Origin: Cytophagaceae bacterium
GTDB lineage: Bacteria > Bacteroidota > Bacteroidia > Cytophagales > Flexibacteraceae
Direction of reading: 5' to 3'
NCBI GenBank assembly: GCA_947458545.1
Contig: CANGYH010000001.1
Location: 62,001 to 126,000 of the forward strand
DNA: 64,000 bases
Part shown: in pieces, positions 53,019-56,734 of the stretch
Position numbering within the stretch: the stretch's first letter is position 1
Layout: each line of letters starts with the position of its first letter
The notes under the pieces: model-generated
Databases searched by the model: none
What the model was told of the DNA's origin: nothing
What the model saw: only the letters and a program-made list of their open reading frames with translations
Translations under genes and position numbers: made by a program

Positions 53019-53068
53019 GCCATTGGCGAGGCCCCTTGGGCAAGCCTGCTTTTTCGCTGGCCAATGCG

Positions 53069-53076
53069 CAACTTTG
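53069..53076 (+). promoter_or_regulatory. -7-like box 5 bases before the pruA start
   Basis: CAACTTTG ends 5 bases before the ATG at 53082, which supports that start over an upstream one within the box. The same box sequence precedes truA. Confidence 0.4.
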
Positions 53077-53081
53077 TTGGC

Positions 53082-54713
53082 ATGAGCCTAGGCACATTCC
53101 ACACACCCATACCCCGCAACGAGCCCGTACAAGACTACCGCCCCGGTAGCCCCGAGCGCGCTGCCCTCAAAGCCGCCCTGGCTGCCCAAAAAGCAGAGGT
53201 GCTAGACGTCCCCATGTACATTGGTGGCCAAGAGGTGCGCACCGGCAAACTGGCCGACTTGCGCCCCCCACACGAGCACAAGCACCTGCTGGGCCGTTTC
53301 CACCAAGGCGACGCCAGCCATGTTGAGCAGGCCATTACCGCAGCGCTGAATGCCAAACCCATGTGGGAGAACCTGCCCTGGGAGCAGCGCGCGGCCATCT
53401 TCTTAAAAGCGGCTGACCTGCTGGCCGGGCCTTACCGTGCCGCCATCAACGCGGCCACCATGCTGGGCCAGAGCAAGAACGCCTACCAGGCAGAGATAGA
53501 CGCCGCATGCGAGATGATTGACTTCTTGCGCTACAACGTAGCCTTTGCCGCCGACATTTACAAGCAGCAGCCCAGCAGCGCCCCCGGCCAGTGGAACCGC
53601 CTGGAGTACCGCCCGCTGGAGGGCTTCGTCTTTGCCCTGACGCCTTTCAACTTCACGGCCATTGCGGGCAACCTGCCCACCAGTGCCGCCCTCATGGGCA
53701 ACACCGTGGTCTGGAAGCCGGCCAACACGCAGATTTACGCCGCGCAACTTCTGATGCGCATCTTCATGGAGGCAGGCCTTCCTGAGGGTGTCATCAACCT
53801 CGTGTATGTAGATGGCCCCACCGCAGGCCAGGTCATCTTAAACCATCCGGACTTTGCCGGTATCCACTTCACCGGATCTACCGGGGTTTTCAACGGCATC
53901 TGGCAGACGGTCGGCCAAAACCTGCACAAGTACAAAAGCTACCCCCGCATCGTGGGCGAGACGGGCGGTAAGGACTTTGTGGTGGCCCACCCCTCGGCCC
54001 ATGTGCAGGCGCTCGTCGTCGGGCTGGTGCGCGGGGCGTTTGAGTACCAGGGCCAGAAGTGCTCTGCCGCCAGCCGGGCCTACATACCGGCCAGCCTCTG
54101 GCCCGCCGTAGAGCAAGGCCTGCGTGCCGAGATGGCCAAGCTCAAAATGGGGTCGGTAGAGGACTTCACCTGCCTCATAAACGCCGTCATTGATGAAAAG
54201 AGCTTCGACAAGCTGGCAGCCGCCATAGACGAGGCCAGGGCCAGTTTCGTGGCCGACGTCCTTATCGGCGGCGGGTACGACAAGAGCCAGGGCTACTTCG
54301 TAGAGCCTACCGTAATACTGGCGCATGATCCGAACTACCGCACCATGTGCGAAGAGCTCTTTGGCCCTGTTCTGACCATTTACGTGTACCAAGATGCCAA
54401 CTGGGCCGACACGCTGCGGTTGGTAGATGAGACGAGCACCTACGCCCTCACGGGTGCCATCTTCAGCCAAGACCGTTACGCCGTAGAAGAGGCCACCAAC
54501 GCCCTGCGCCACGCCGCTGGCAACTTCTATGTGAACGACAAGCCCACGGGCGCCGTAGTGGGCCAACAGCCTTTTGGCGGTGCCCGCAAGTCTGGCACCA
54601 ACGACAAGGCCGGGTCCTACCTAAACCTCCTCCGCTGGGTATCGGCCCGTGCCATCAAAGAGACGTTCGTCTCTCCCACCACGGTAGCCTACCCCTTTAT
54701 GGAGGCGGAGTAG
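53082..54713 (+). CDS. pruA: 1-pyrroline-5-carboxylate dehydrogenase
   Basis: 543 residues from the ATG at 53082. Aldehyde dehydrogenase fold with GETGGKDF (Glu293) and the catalytic Cys327 in GQKCSAASR, and the C-terminal PFGGARKSGTNDKAG substrate loop. Length and motifs fit the stand-alone P5C dehydrogenase that oxidises glutamate-gamma-semialdehyde to glutamate in proline catabolism. No putA-type proline dehydrogenase is adjacent. The gene is followed by the repeat island. Confidence 0.94.
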   Translation: MSLGTFHTPIPRNEPVQDYRPGSPERAALKAALAAQKAEVLDVPMYIGGQEVRTGKLADLRPPHEHKHLLGRFHQGDASHVEQAITAALNAKPMWENLPWEQRAAIFLKAADLLAGPYRAAINAATMLGQSKNAYQAEIDAACEMIDFLRYNVAFAADIYKQQPSSAPGQWNRLEYRPLEGFVFALTPFNFTAIAGNLPTSAALMGNTVVWKPANTQIYAAQLLMRIFMEAGLPEGVINLVYVDGPTAGQVILNHPDFAGIHFTGSTGVFNGIWQTVGQNLHKYKSYPRIVGETGGKDFVVAHPSAHVQALVVGLVRGAFEYQGQKCSAASRAYIPASLWPAVEQGLRAEMAKLKMGSVEDFTCLINAVIDEKSFDKLAAAIDEARASFVADVLIGGGYDKSQGYFVEPTVILAHDPNYRTMCEELFGPVLTIYVYQDANWADTLRLVDETSTYALTGAIFSQDRYAVEEATNALRHAAGNFYVNDKPTGAVVGQQPFGGARKSGTNDKAGSYLNLLRWVSARAIKETFVSPTTVAYPFMEAE

Positions 54714-54958
54714 GCGCTGTGCCCCTAGTCGCGGTATCCCCTAGTGCTGGTCCCGGTCTCCAGACCGGGACCCATCCACAGAAGGCACTGCGGTCTCCAG
54801 ACCGCTGAATGTGGTGGCGTGGGGTTCGGTCTTTGGCACGGGCAGGTATCCGGGCTACGGCTAGCCCGCCCCAGGATGCGGCCGCCTCAGGCTAAAGCCG
54901 TGGGGCTACTAGGATTGCGACGGCTGAAGCCGCCCGCTTTAGCTTCCCATTCACCGAC

Positions 54959-55026
54959 GCTCTCGCCAGCCTCCAGGCTGGTGAGTGGCAGGGTCGGAAG
55001 CGTTCCGCTTCCGCGCCGAAGGCGAA
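54959..55026 (+). repeat. Left arm of a 68-bp inverted repeat
   Basis: The reverse complement of this segment matches 55839-55906 at 61 of 68 positions by eye. Both arms contain the CCAGCCT/AGGCTGG palindrome and the CGCC-GAA-GGCG palindrome. The arms face each other across 812 bases. Confidence 0.85.
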
Positions 55027-55283
55027 GGGCGGCCCTCCCACGTACCCGGCCCGTGTACCTGGTCCCGGTTTGCAACCGGTACCCACCCAAGGTTGCCGGT
55101 TTGCAACCGGCCAGAACGGCAAGCGTCATGTAGGGGCGGACCCGCGTGTCCGCCCGCCTGCGGATGGCGCTTGGGTCAGATATTAGCCGGTACGCTAGTC
55201 CGGCGTCAGCCTAGTTCACCCTAGACTTTAAGTCTAGGGCTACTGCTAAATGCGACGGCTAAAGCCGAACGCTTCTTTTATGC

Positions 55284-55343
55284 TGATTTACAGGACGTTG
55301 GAAAGGATTTTTGTCGTGGAAATGTCGGTGGAAGTGTCGAGTG
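55284..55343 (+). repeat. Unit with TGTCG motifs, copy A
   Basis: Begins TGATTTACAG, then TTTTTGTCG, ATGTCGGTGG and GTGTCGA. It aligns with copies B and C with one single-base shift. Confidence 0.75.
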
Positions 55344-55414
55344 CTTGTCGTTGTAGTGCGGGCTGTTAGCCCGCTAGGCGGATTATGCCCGTAGGTAGGG
55401 GACTTAGCCTAGTT

Positions 55415-55503
55415 GTCGGTTTTTTGGTTAAGGTGTTTTGTATTGATTTACAGGGGTTTGCGTGGAGTTTTTGTCGAGAGATGTCGGTAGGTTTGTCGGG
55501 TGG
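55415..55503 (+). repeat. Unit with TGTCG motifs, copy B
   Basis: An 89-bp unit. It starts with a T-rich GTCGGTTTTTTGGTTA lead, then 29 bases on TGATTTACAG, followed by the TTTTTGTCG, ATGTCGG and TTTGTCG motifs. The last 60 bases match copy C at 41 positions without gaps. Confidence 0.8.
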
Positions 55504-55602
55504 TACGCCAGTCTGAAGACTGCTCGTCCATGGGCGTCACAAGTCATCGCTCCCCTAATCGGGTCGCTAAAGACTTGCGACAGGTTGCCATTAAGACTGT
55601 GT

Positions 55603-55690
55603 GTCTATTTTTTGGTTTTTGGGTTATAGCTTGATTTGCAAGGTGTTGTAAGCGGTTTTTGTCGGAGGTTGTCGGCGGTTTTGTCGAATG
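55603..55690 (+). repeat. Unit with TGTCG motifs, copy C
   Basis: Same order as copy B: T-rich lead, TGATTTGCAA exactly 29 bases later, then TTTTTGTCG, TTGTCGG and TTTGTCG. The motif spacing is conserved although the bases between vary. Confidence 0.8.
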
Positions 55691-55838
55691 TTGGTCTAAG
55701 GGGTGAAATGCCAGGCATAGCCTGGCCGTTAGAGGTTTGAGGGCATAGCCCTCCAACAGCGGGAGGCGGGGGAGCTGCAATTGGGTAAGGTAGAGGGCGG
55801 GTTTTGTGCCTTGGCTTTTTTGTGCCAAGGGACGGTGG

Positions 55839-55906
55839 TTCGCCTTCGGCGCGGTAGCCAGAGGCTTCCGGTCCTGCCACTCACCAGCCTGGAGGCTGGC
55901 GAGAGC
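55839..55906 (-). repeat. Right arm of a 68-bp inverted repeat
   Basis: Partner of 54959-55026 in inverse orientation. The mismatches are clustered at the middle (around 55855-55872), while both ends are identical. Confidence 0.85.
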
Positions 55907-55967
55907 TGTGGGGGCGTAGTATGCTTGAATACGTTCGGCTTTAGCCTGGGGCGGCCTTCTCAACATA

Positions 55968-56000
55968 AAAAAGCCAGCCCTTTTCCAGAGCTGGCTTTTT
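55968..56000 (-). terminator. Bidirectional terminator after the Skp/OmpH genes
   Basis: An 11-bp stem (55968-55978 with 55990-56000) flanked by A5 on one side and T5 on the other, so it works on either strand. It lies 20 bases past the end of the 56021-56734 gene. Confidence 0.85.
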
Positions 56001-56020: not shown

Positions 56021-56734
56021 CTACTTCTTGCCCTTCTTGCCGCTGGGGCTGGGGGCGCTGCCGGGTTTGCCGCTGGGGGCAGGTGTATTAGCCTTGGGCG
56101 CAGAAGCACCGGTAGCGTTGGCGGCCGGTTTGGCAGGTTCCTCGTCCTTGAGCTCGGGGTAGCCCAGTTTTTTCAGGACCAGCGGGGTGGCGTCGGCACC
56201 CTCGGCAGCATAAAGCAGCACCTGGTCTGAGTTGAAGATGAAAGTAAAGCCGTTGTCTTTGGCAACGTCGTTGATGGCGGCATAGATTTTATCCAGCTCG
56301 GGCTTCACCAGCTCGCTTTCTTTGTTTTTGAGCTCGCCCTGGGCGTTCTCTTGCAGCGTGCGGATAGACTGCTCCAGGTTGCGCAGTTCGCTCTGCTTGT
56401 CCTGCTTGATGGACTCCATCATTGTCGCCTCGTTCTTTTGGTAGGCGGCAAACTTCTCTTCCAGCTCCTTGATTTTGTCTTGGATGGCTTTCTCGTATTG
56501 TTTGCTGGCTGTCTCTAGCTGGCTTTTGATAACCTTGGTCTGCGGGCTGGCAGCGAGCAGATACTGCACGTTGGTATAACCCAGCTTGATGACACCCGTG
56601 GCGCTAGAGGGGGCCTGGGCTATGGTAGAGGTGGTGGCAGTTGGGGCAGCCTGTAGCGTAGGGGCAGGCGTGCCTTGCTGGGCCAGGGCTGATAGGGCCA
56701 GGCCAAACGTGGCCAGAGTGAGGGTCGCTTTCAT
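56021..56734 (-). CDS. OmpH/Skp-family periplasmic chaperone, Pro/Ala/Lys tail
   Basis: 237 residues with a signal peptide (MKATLTLATFGLALSALAQ). A Skp-like core follows a strand (KLGYTNVQYLL): two long charged helices (about 65-150, EKAIQDKIKELEEKFAAYQK) and the final beta segment TFIFNSDQVLLYAAEG. The C-terminal 45 residues are Pro/Ala/Gly/Lys-rich and disordered, longer than in the family. Skp trimers hold unfolded outer-membrane proteins for BamA. It is downstream of bamA and the paralogous gene at 56898, from which 163 bases separate it. A CATCTTTG box (56837-56830) could start a separate transcript. Confidence 0.88.
   Translation of the reverse strand: MKATLTLATFGLALSALAQQGTPAPTLQAAPTATTSTIAQAPSSATGVIKLGYTNVQYLLAASPQTKVIKSQLETASKQYEKAIQDKIKELEEKFAAYQKNEATMMESIKQDKQSELRNLEQSIRTLQENAQGELKNKESELVKPELDKIYAAINDVAKDNGFTFIFNSDQVLLYAAEGADATPLVLKKLGYPELKDEEPAKPAANATGASAPKANTPAPSGKPGSAPSPSGKKGKK

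Follow-up and report, generated by a model that had tools for sequence, protein, structure and literature searches.

A palindrome-dense island between convergent genes of a Cytophagaceae bacterium: a probable mosaic of REP-like elements linked to Y1 transposases

The palindrome-rich DNA at positions 54714–55967 of the window, which is the whole 64,000-nucleotide stretch of a Cytophagaceae genome that was analyzed, is in all likelihood a mosaic of REP-like, non-autonomous elements of several Y1 tyrosine (HuH) single-strand transposase systems. It probably represents a heterotypic REP/BIME type island built by HuH Y1 transposases. An earlier, sequence-only reading had left the palindromes without affiliation. 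However, the modules M1 and M2/M6 are tied to two Y1 genes of the same genome, and M3, M4, and M10 resemble the flanks of genes for REP-associated tyrosine transposases (RAYTs). One suggestion of that reading, namely “remnants of a replicating small element,” comes close to this result. M1 and M2/M6 are homologous to terminal repeats of Y1 transposase genes.

Setting and extent of the island

The island fills most of the gap separating two convergent genes. On the left, a plus-strand gene of the aldehyde dehydrogenase family (53064–54713; Pfam Aldedh) probably encodes a delta-1-pyrroline-5-carboxylate (P5C) dehydrogenase, and on the right a minus-strand gene of the OmpH/Skp family follows (56021–56734; Pfam OmpH). 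Among 80 named relatives listed for a neighboring gene, nearly all belong to Bacteroidota, with protein identities of at most 71%; this list may lack records of the own genome. Repeat DNA begins right past the stop of the aldehyde dehydrogenase gene and reaches to approximately position 55957, forming a mosaic of about 10 modules. The depth of matches to other sampled stretches of the same genome is about zero until approximately position 54720, shifts module by module along the island, and is zero again at approximately 55960; because these stretches included islands picked for matching, the depth does not equal a genome-wide count. The region was rightly described as gene-free, as the two longest ORFs wholly within it (129 and 140 amino acids) have no Pfam match and the DNA is repetitive up to both edges. 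A scan of the window with Rfam 15 at the gathering score gave no matches. Just beyond the island, downstream of the OmpH gene, lies a terminator-like hairpin (AAAAAGCCAGCCCT/AGAGCTGGCTTTTT, 55968–56000).

When perfect palindromes (loop 0–8) are counted without overlap, the island has 18, 15, 12, and 4 for minimum arm lengths of 5, 6, 7, and 8 bp, respectively, as compared to means of 7.8, 2.5, 0.5, and 0.2 and maxima of 15, 6, 3, and 1 in 100 dinucleotide shuffles. The sequence-only reading had counted about twenty palindromes; a clear excess over the shuffles stands, but a number near 20 is reached only with 5-bp arms (18), which is the least significant class. The words it had named are present, with two occurrences each of GGTCTCCAGACC and CCGGTTTGCAACCGG, CCAGCCTCCAGGCTGG with an inverted copy, and GGCTnnAGCC. 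Its distinction of the array from CRISPR agrees with inspection, which finds differing palindromes at irregular distances, and we likewise concur that the array is not of the enterobacterial REP type. Elsewhere in the genome, 1-kb bins containing at least three palindromes with 8-bp arms occurred in 3 of 20 sampled 20-kb stretches, of which 16 had arbitrary positions and 4 were placed on RAYT genes, so that such islands are not ubiquitous.

Modular structure

Hairpin pairs make up 7 of the 10 island modules, their two hairpins being 12–17 nt apart. M1 (54746–54808, plus strand) pairs hairpin A (54749–54772) with hairpin B (54790–54805), both of which carry the apex GGTCTCCAGACC. M4 (55057–55116, plus strand) has an M1-like outer scaffold and the apex GGTTTGCAACC in both hairpins, and the hairpins of M10 (55704–55765, minus strand; 55710–55726 and 55739–55753) have GGCATAGCC in common. 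The apices of the two hairpins differ in M3 (54955–55035, plus strand; 54966–54981 and 54995–55013). M2 (54877–54944, minus strand) consists of the hairpin CGGCTTCAGCCG, a spacer, GTAG, and an imperfect second hairpin. M6 (55204–55275, minus strand), which was joined to the M2 family by pattern and by alignment, contains the GTAG-footed hairpin CCCTAGACTTAAAGTCTAGGG and the hairpin CGGCTTTAGCCG. In M9 (55500–55586, minus strand), hairpin B (55509–55522) is accompanied by a hairpin A whose arms (55536–55545/55572–55581) include one G-T pair and enclose a long center.

The form of M5 (55125–55160, plus strand) is that of a canonical REP, with GTAG (55130–55133) and the hairpin GGGCGGAC..GTCCGCCC. 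M8 (55350–55380, plus strand) is composed of GTAG (55353–55356) and the hairpin GCGGGCTgttAGCCCGC; by reading, it resembles the hairpins found on the outer sides of composites elsewhere. The non-palindromic M7 (55276–55345, plus strand), with a repeated TGTCG, is the first of three diverged 89-bp units that start at 55276 and near 55436 and 55624 (41 nt reported, 71% alike). Toward its right end the island contains M3′ (55835–55910, minus strand), an inverted copy of M3; the resulting inverted repeat, which the sequence-only reading overlooked, has 68-nt arms (54959–55026/55839–55906) that are 90% complementary. Finally, M2′ (55925–55957, plus strand) is a truncated, inverted M2-type end (21 nt, 95%).

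A GTAG foot is present in M2, M5, M6, and M8 and absent from M1, M3, M4, and M10, which rules out such a foot as a property of every module. A strict CT rule was dropped as well, since CT at the foot is in weak excess only (13 of 71 first versus 5 of 71 second hairpins) and TG is equally frequent (13 of 71).

Copies in the genome and in relatives

With the whole island as query, at least 108 matches were found in the genome, itself included; this number is a lower bound, 40 of 86 candidates having been scored. Grouped from the match list, parts of the island match at least 38 other places, some of them with a single module. M1 alone has 34 matches including itself. For M9 there are 30, of which 26 extend over at least 68 nt and the best non-self copy is 97% identical, and for M4 there are 15, 10 of them over at least 50 nt and three short ones being M1 copies. 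The pattern of the M2/M6 family has 44 exact hits, and the reversed-pattern control has none. Among the copies judged, those inside ORFs of at least 200 amino acids are 1 of 22 for M1, 3 of 29 for M2/M6, and 1 of 20 for M9; with ORFs of at least 150 amino acids the numbers become 4, 5, and 1. Six-frame ORFs of these two size classes cover 75 and 85%, respectively, of the window plus four long stretches partly selected for their RAYTs. The recurring palindrome families noted by the sequence-only reading are thereby confirmed (15–44 matches per module for four modules; copies mostly outside long ORFs for the three tested), and its reservation that the words might be no commoner than chance, or occur only here, did not hold.

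Fifteen of the 34 M1 copies are preceded, within the 40 nt examined upstream, by a further half of hairpin A, mostly after 5–10 nt. This extra half is a full hairpin in one case, occurs at both flanks of the RAYT gene L002, and may be a cutting site or guide. Short arrays of a GTTGARA-type heptamer adjoin 9 of the 34 copies in the same 40-nt interval. M7-type TGTCG units elsewhere in the genome often directly adjoin M9 copies. Island modules were also seen at or near contig ends (C2:148, C7:147, C5:202847, C9:92522), and the repeats may therefore limit assembly.

In a search of 11 genomes of the family with the island DNA, three genomes other than the own one gave short matches, five in all, of which four concern M5 and one concerns the 89-bp unit. 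The M5 matches in two other family genomes are 28–41 nt long. An orthologue of the P5C dehydrogenase gene is present in all 11 genomes (own included), and neither an OmpH nor a CorA neighbor was detected beside it in the 10 relatives within up to 1.5 kb on each side (three shorter); this comparison showed no empty site, excision, or insertion.

RAYT genes and their hairpin flanks

The genome contains eight genes for Y1 (HuH) transposases. Seven of the proteins pass the NCBI REP_Tyr_transpos cut-off; for the eighth, L001, the cut-off passed is the one for IS200/IS605 transposases. Among solved structures, TnpA_REP (4er8) is nearest in sequence to the RAYT L002, and IS608 TnpA (2a6m) is nearest to L001. 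Six of the RAYTs, 181–189 amino acids long as read, have HxH, WQ, and Y-x-H-x-NP motifs, the last in the variants YLHDNP, YIHQNP, YIHDNP, and YIHENP; L004 and L005 show SHxH in place of NHxH at the HuH motif. The RAYTs are diverged, six being 41–49% identical to the first. Six of the seven are flanked on each side by a hairpin pair that is inverted on the opposite side and whose words are specific to each gene. The seventh, L003 (C9:18257–18661), has no hairpin pair. Adjacent to it are copies of a hairpin that has GTAG at one end and CTAC at the opposite one, similar to the subclass 2.4 REPs with a “double foot” that are reported in the part of PMC6006769 that was compared.

As a control, 817 mismatched left/right pairs were scored; their 99th percentile is 57, and their maximum of 128 presumably stems from related loci. 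Inverted left and right flanks that exceed this percentile were found at 24 of 50 RAYT loci. These comprise six of the seven own loci and 18 of 43 from relatives, which are not independent because some relatives contribute several related loci; the other 25 loci from relatives and L003 did not pass. When the same threshold was applied to 185 ATG-ORFs of 150–400 amino acids, coding or not, from the 20 stretches, two passed, both being RAYTs by position.

M1 matches both flanks of L002 (C1:1593532–1594080) with E-values of 6e-7 and 4e-6 and, judged by its sequence, is homologous to the inverted repeats around this gene. M3, M4, and M10 resemble RAYT flanks less closely. M4 matches an L002 flank at a blastn E-value of 0.005, with an alignment above all 500 shuffles. 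M3 scores 54 and 47 against the L004 flanks (shuffle maxima 28 and 30), and M10 aligns along its whole length with an L008 flank (score 44, shuffle maximum 34). Each of the 48 module–flank comparisons was made with 500 shuffles. Because these do not preserve palindromes and because M1 gave p = 0.006 against a flank of the “wrong” RAYT L008 as well, the resemblances of M3, M4, and M10 are weaker evidence than the homologies of M1 and M2. The weak resemblance of M9 to an L004 flank has a score that shuffles reached. In a blastn comparison of the island with 57 Y1 loci at an E-value of 0.01, own Y1 genes were hit by M1, M2, and M4 only and by none of M3 and M5–M10; for M5, M8, and the 89-bp units, no transposase link was found in this search.

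Hairpin modules at a subclass 1.2 TnpA

L001 (C1:1638817) is a TnpA gene whose product has the signature Y---Q--HH. Like six of the own RAYTs, the gene carries inverted hairpin pairs. Of the three module copies around it, two lie to its left and one to its right, and M2 is 83–90% identical to these three copies over 58–66 nt (E-values of 1e-11 to 1e-13). This similarity indicates that M2/M6 is homologous to the inverted repeats around the subclass 1.2 TnpA. GGCTnnAGCC, which the sequence-only reading presented as scattered through some environmental genomes and not known to have a described function, proved to be a core word of this module. In the own module, the GTAG foot belongs to the second hairpin; by eye, this hairpin occurs in the versions CCCCTGGC/GCCTGGGG, CCCCAGGTT/AACCTGGGG, and CCCTAGACT/AGTCTAGGG, which keep the pairing, and other copies are imperfect or break pairs.

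An L001-type match at an E-value of 1e-20 was found in 32 of 98 genomes searched, with one such gene in the own genome, and the Y---Q--HH signature is present at all 28 loci examined (the own one and 27 from relatives). Inverted flanks above the 99th percentile of the control (41; 756 mismatched pairs) occur at 15 of these 28 loci, three of which exceed it barely (42–47), and 13 failed the test. Two mismatched pairs scored 179 and 407, presumably due to close relatives. A high copy number of the module in relatives was not seen in the one genome tested, which has it at four places around its TnpA and as four short ones elsewhere; a high copy number is hence not general.

A shared apex as a candidate specificity key

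Among 71 neighboring hairpin pairs detected automatically, which take in chance hairpins and related loci, 22 have an identical 3-bp apex, as compared to a mean of 4.4% and a maximum of 14.3% in 2000 permutations. At least one pair with a shared apex exists at 14 of 33 loci, and in 49 of the 71 pairs the apex is not shared. Within the island, M1, M4, and M10 have an exact common apex and M3 and M6 do not. In two cases the apex has changed jointly: M1 and M4 possess similar outer scaffolds and different apices, altered in both hairpins, and the loop differs in both hairpins between the L008 flank and M10. Loop positions matter for recognition by other TnpA_REP enzymes (section compared of PMC8266576), which makes the apex a plausible recognition key.

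Building on these two cases, which are few, we tentatively propose a broader scheme, which may well prove wrong. Two separate branches of Bacteroidota Y1 transposases, RAYTs of subclass 2.6 and TnpA of subclass 1.2, might share one mobile unit, a tandem hairpin pair with the apex as specificity key, while scaffold, foot, and spacer would be lineage-bound. The apex would be exchanged in both hairpins together, and nesting of elements would give rise to concentric islands.

Composite islands and the origin of the array

Pairwise alignments of islands are colinear, with whole modules present or absent and 72–78% identity over hundreds of bases. Some modules are nested in inverted arrangements. 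Inverted M2/M6 neighbors less than 600 bp apart occur eight times, all in the order minus–plus, and one of these pairs encloses the TnpA gene itself; three neighbors within this distance have the same orientation. By eye, L008-like hairpins lie between the copies in six of the seven other inverted pairs, as does M9 in six, and five of the pairs are bordered on one or both sides by an outer GTAG hairpin. The segment inside these composites appears in both orientations. The simplest reading of this arrangement would be that elements inserted into one another and that inversion between the arms followed.

On this basis, the following course of events can be envisaged. The hairpins would form on single-stranded DNA during replication, where the cognate transposase would recognize them and, by cutting and rejoining, copy or move the modules. 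Islands would have grown through the arrival of new elements within or next to older ones, and recombination between inverted copies would have rearranged them. The gap of the convergent genes presumably tolerates such repeat DNA, and any influence on transcript ends or on the stability of mRNA would be a secondary matter. Likewise, the roles as binding sites or RNA hairpins considered by the sequence-only reading may be secondary uses.

Alternatively, the islands could have multiplied passively, by segmental duplication and repeat recombination, with the transposases as bystanders within the same repeats. Colinearity of the islands over hundreds of bases at 72–78% identity would fit this explanation, as would the occurrence of composite inner segments, by reading, in both orientations. 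We nevertheless consider it unlikely, because islands differ by whole modules, each RAYT gene has its own hairpin words on both sides, and M1 matches also exist where no island match is listed (the island list having scored only part of the candidates).

The location between convergent genes would also suit hairpins that serve mainly as RNA or transcription signals, i.e., bidirectional terminators or mRNA stabilizers that were multiplied because they are useful at convergent gene ends. According to the text compared in PMC3733652, most published REPs are located where the adjacent genes are convergent or unidirectional, and an action at the RNA level is considered possible. Such an origin is nonetheless improbable, as about 10 modules exceed the need of a terminator, the separate terminator-like hairpin at 55968–56000 lies outside the repeats, and a terminator role does not predict inverted module pairs around transposase genes, which in the sampled ORFs were found only at RAYTs. 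Still more improbable are binding sites for a host protein such as gyrase or a nucleoid or segregation protein: IHF, DNA polymerase I, and gyrase reportedly bind to the REPs of enterobacteria (part of PMC6006769 compared), but the many distinct stems here (GGTC, GGCT, CCGGTT, GAGGGC) argue against a single sequence-specific protein. A mosaic of transposase-linked elements remains the preferred reading.

With this mosaic reading, a class of Bacteroidota palindromes that otherwise lack an explanation acquires a likely owner. The “atypical structures” of subclass 2.6 receive a defined anatomy, and subclass 1.2, although described as REP-free, becomes tied to hairpin modules at its flanks. As a simple hypothesis, a shared apex might allow related single-strand transposases of the same cell to separate their substrates.

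Comparison with known systems

An island of REP/BIME type is known in kind. As far as was searched, the hairpin-pair anatomy with common apex at subclass 2.6 and the hairpin link of subclass 1.2 are new; in the literature searched, no paper was found on subclass 1.2 hairpins or on a hairpin-pair anatomy of subclass 2.6.

REPs, REPINs, and BIMEs with TnpA_REP are intergenic palindromes that stand inverted around a single tnpA_REP gene, each gene having its own REP family, and that form mosaics (compared parts of PMC6006769, PMC3733652). Like those of E. coli and Pseudomonas, the modules M1, M2/M6, and M9 are short, multi-copy palindromes that are mostly intergenic. The same element also stands inverted around a tnpA_REP gene of the same genome, clearly so for M1 and by resemblance for M3, M4, and M10. 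The RAYT-type modules differ from the REPs of these organisms in lacking a GTAG foot and in consisting of two hairpins in tandem, which often have the same apex. Here, moreover, one island unites modules linked to two Y1 genes (L001, L002) with others that are like the L004 and L008 flanks. It differs from an IS200/IS605 insertion sequence in that several near-identical transposase copies are absent, the own RAYTs being diverged and the L001-type TnpA being single.

Paired hairpins at the ends of RAYT-like genes are not new in themselves, since the compared text of PMC3733652 describes TIRYTs and TIRtrons, RAYT-like genes bounded by TIRs that may recur, some of them self-complementary, and speaks in a figure legend of “double palindromic TIRs.” In that text, these TIRs are from other phyla, and a common apex is not mentioned.

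A further counterpart is TnpA_REP subclass 2.6 (Bertels group 5) of Bacteroidetes, whose genes are flanked by “atypical secondary structures” that recur in the genome and have no GT[AG]G foot (PMC6006769, sections compared). Six own RAYTs approximately fit its features (NH[LIV]H, WQ, YIH[QN]NP, approximately 179 amino acids), with SHxH in two of six; their flanking structures recur in the genome, and M1, M3, M4, and M10 lack a GT[AG]G foot. The main-text sections of PMC6006769 that were compared give no anatomy, whereas here the structures are hairpin pairs, inverted on the opposite side and often with a shared apex. Subclass 1.2 of TnpA_Y1 (Y---Q--HH; Cyanobacteria, Bacteroidetes) is characterized in the same sections as low-copy, “REP: no,” and generally without typical terminal structures. 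The signature at 28 of 28 loci and the single own gene agree with this description; in contrast to it, inverted flanks exceed the control at 15 of the 28 loci, and the genome contains 44 hits of the own module family.
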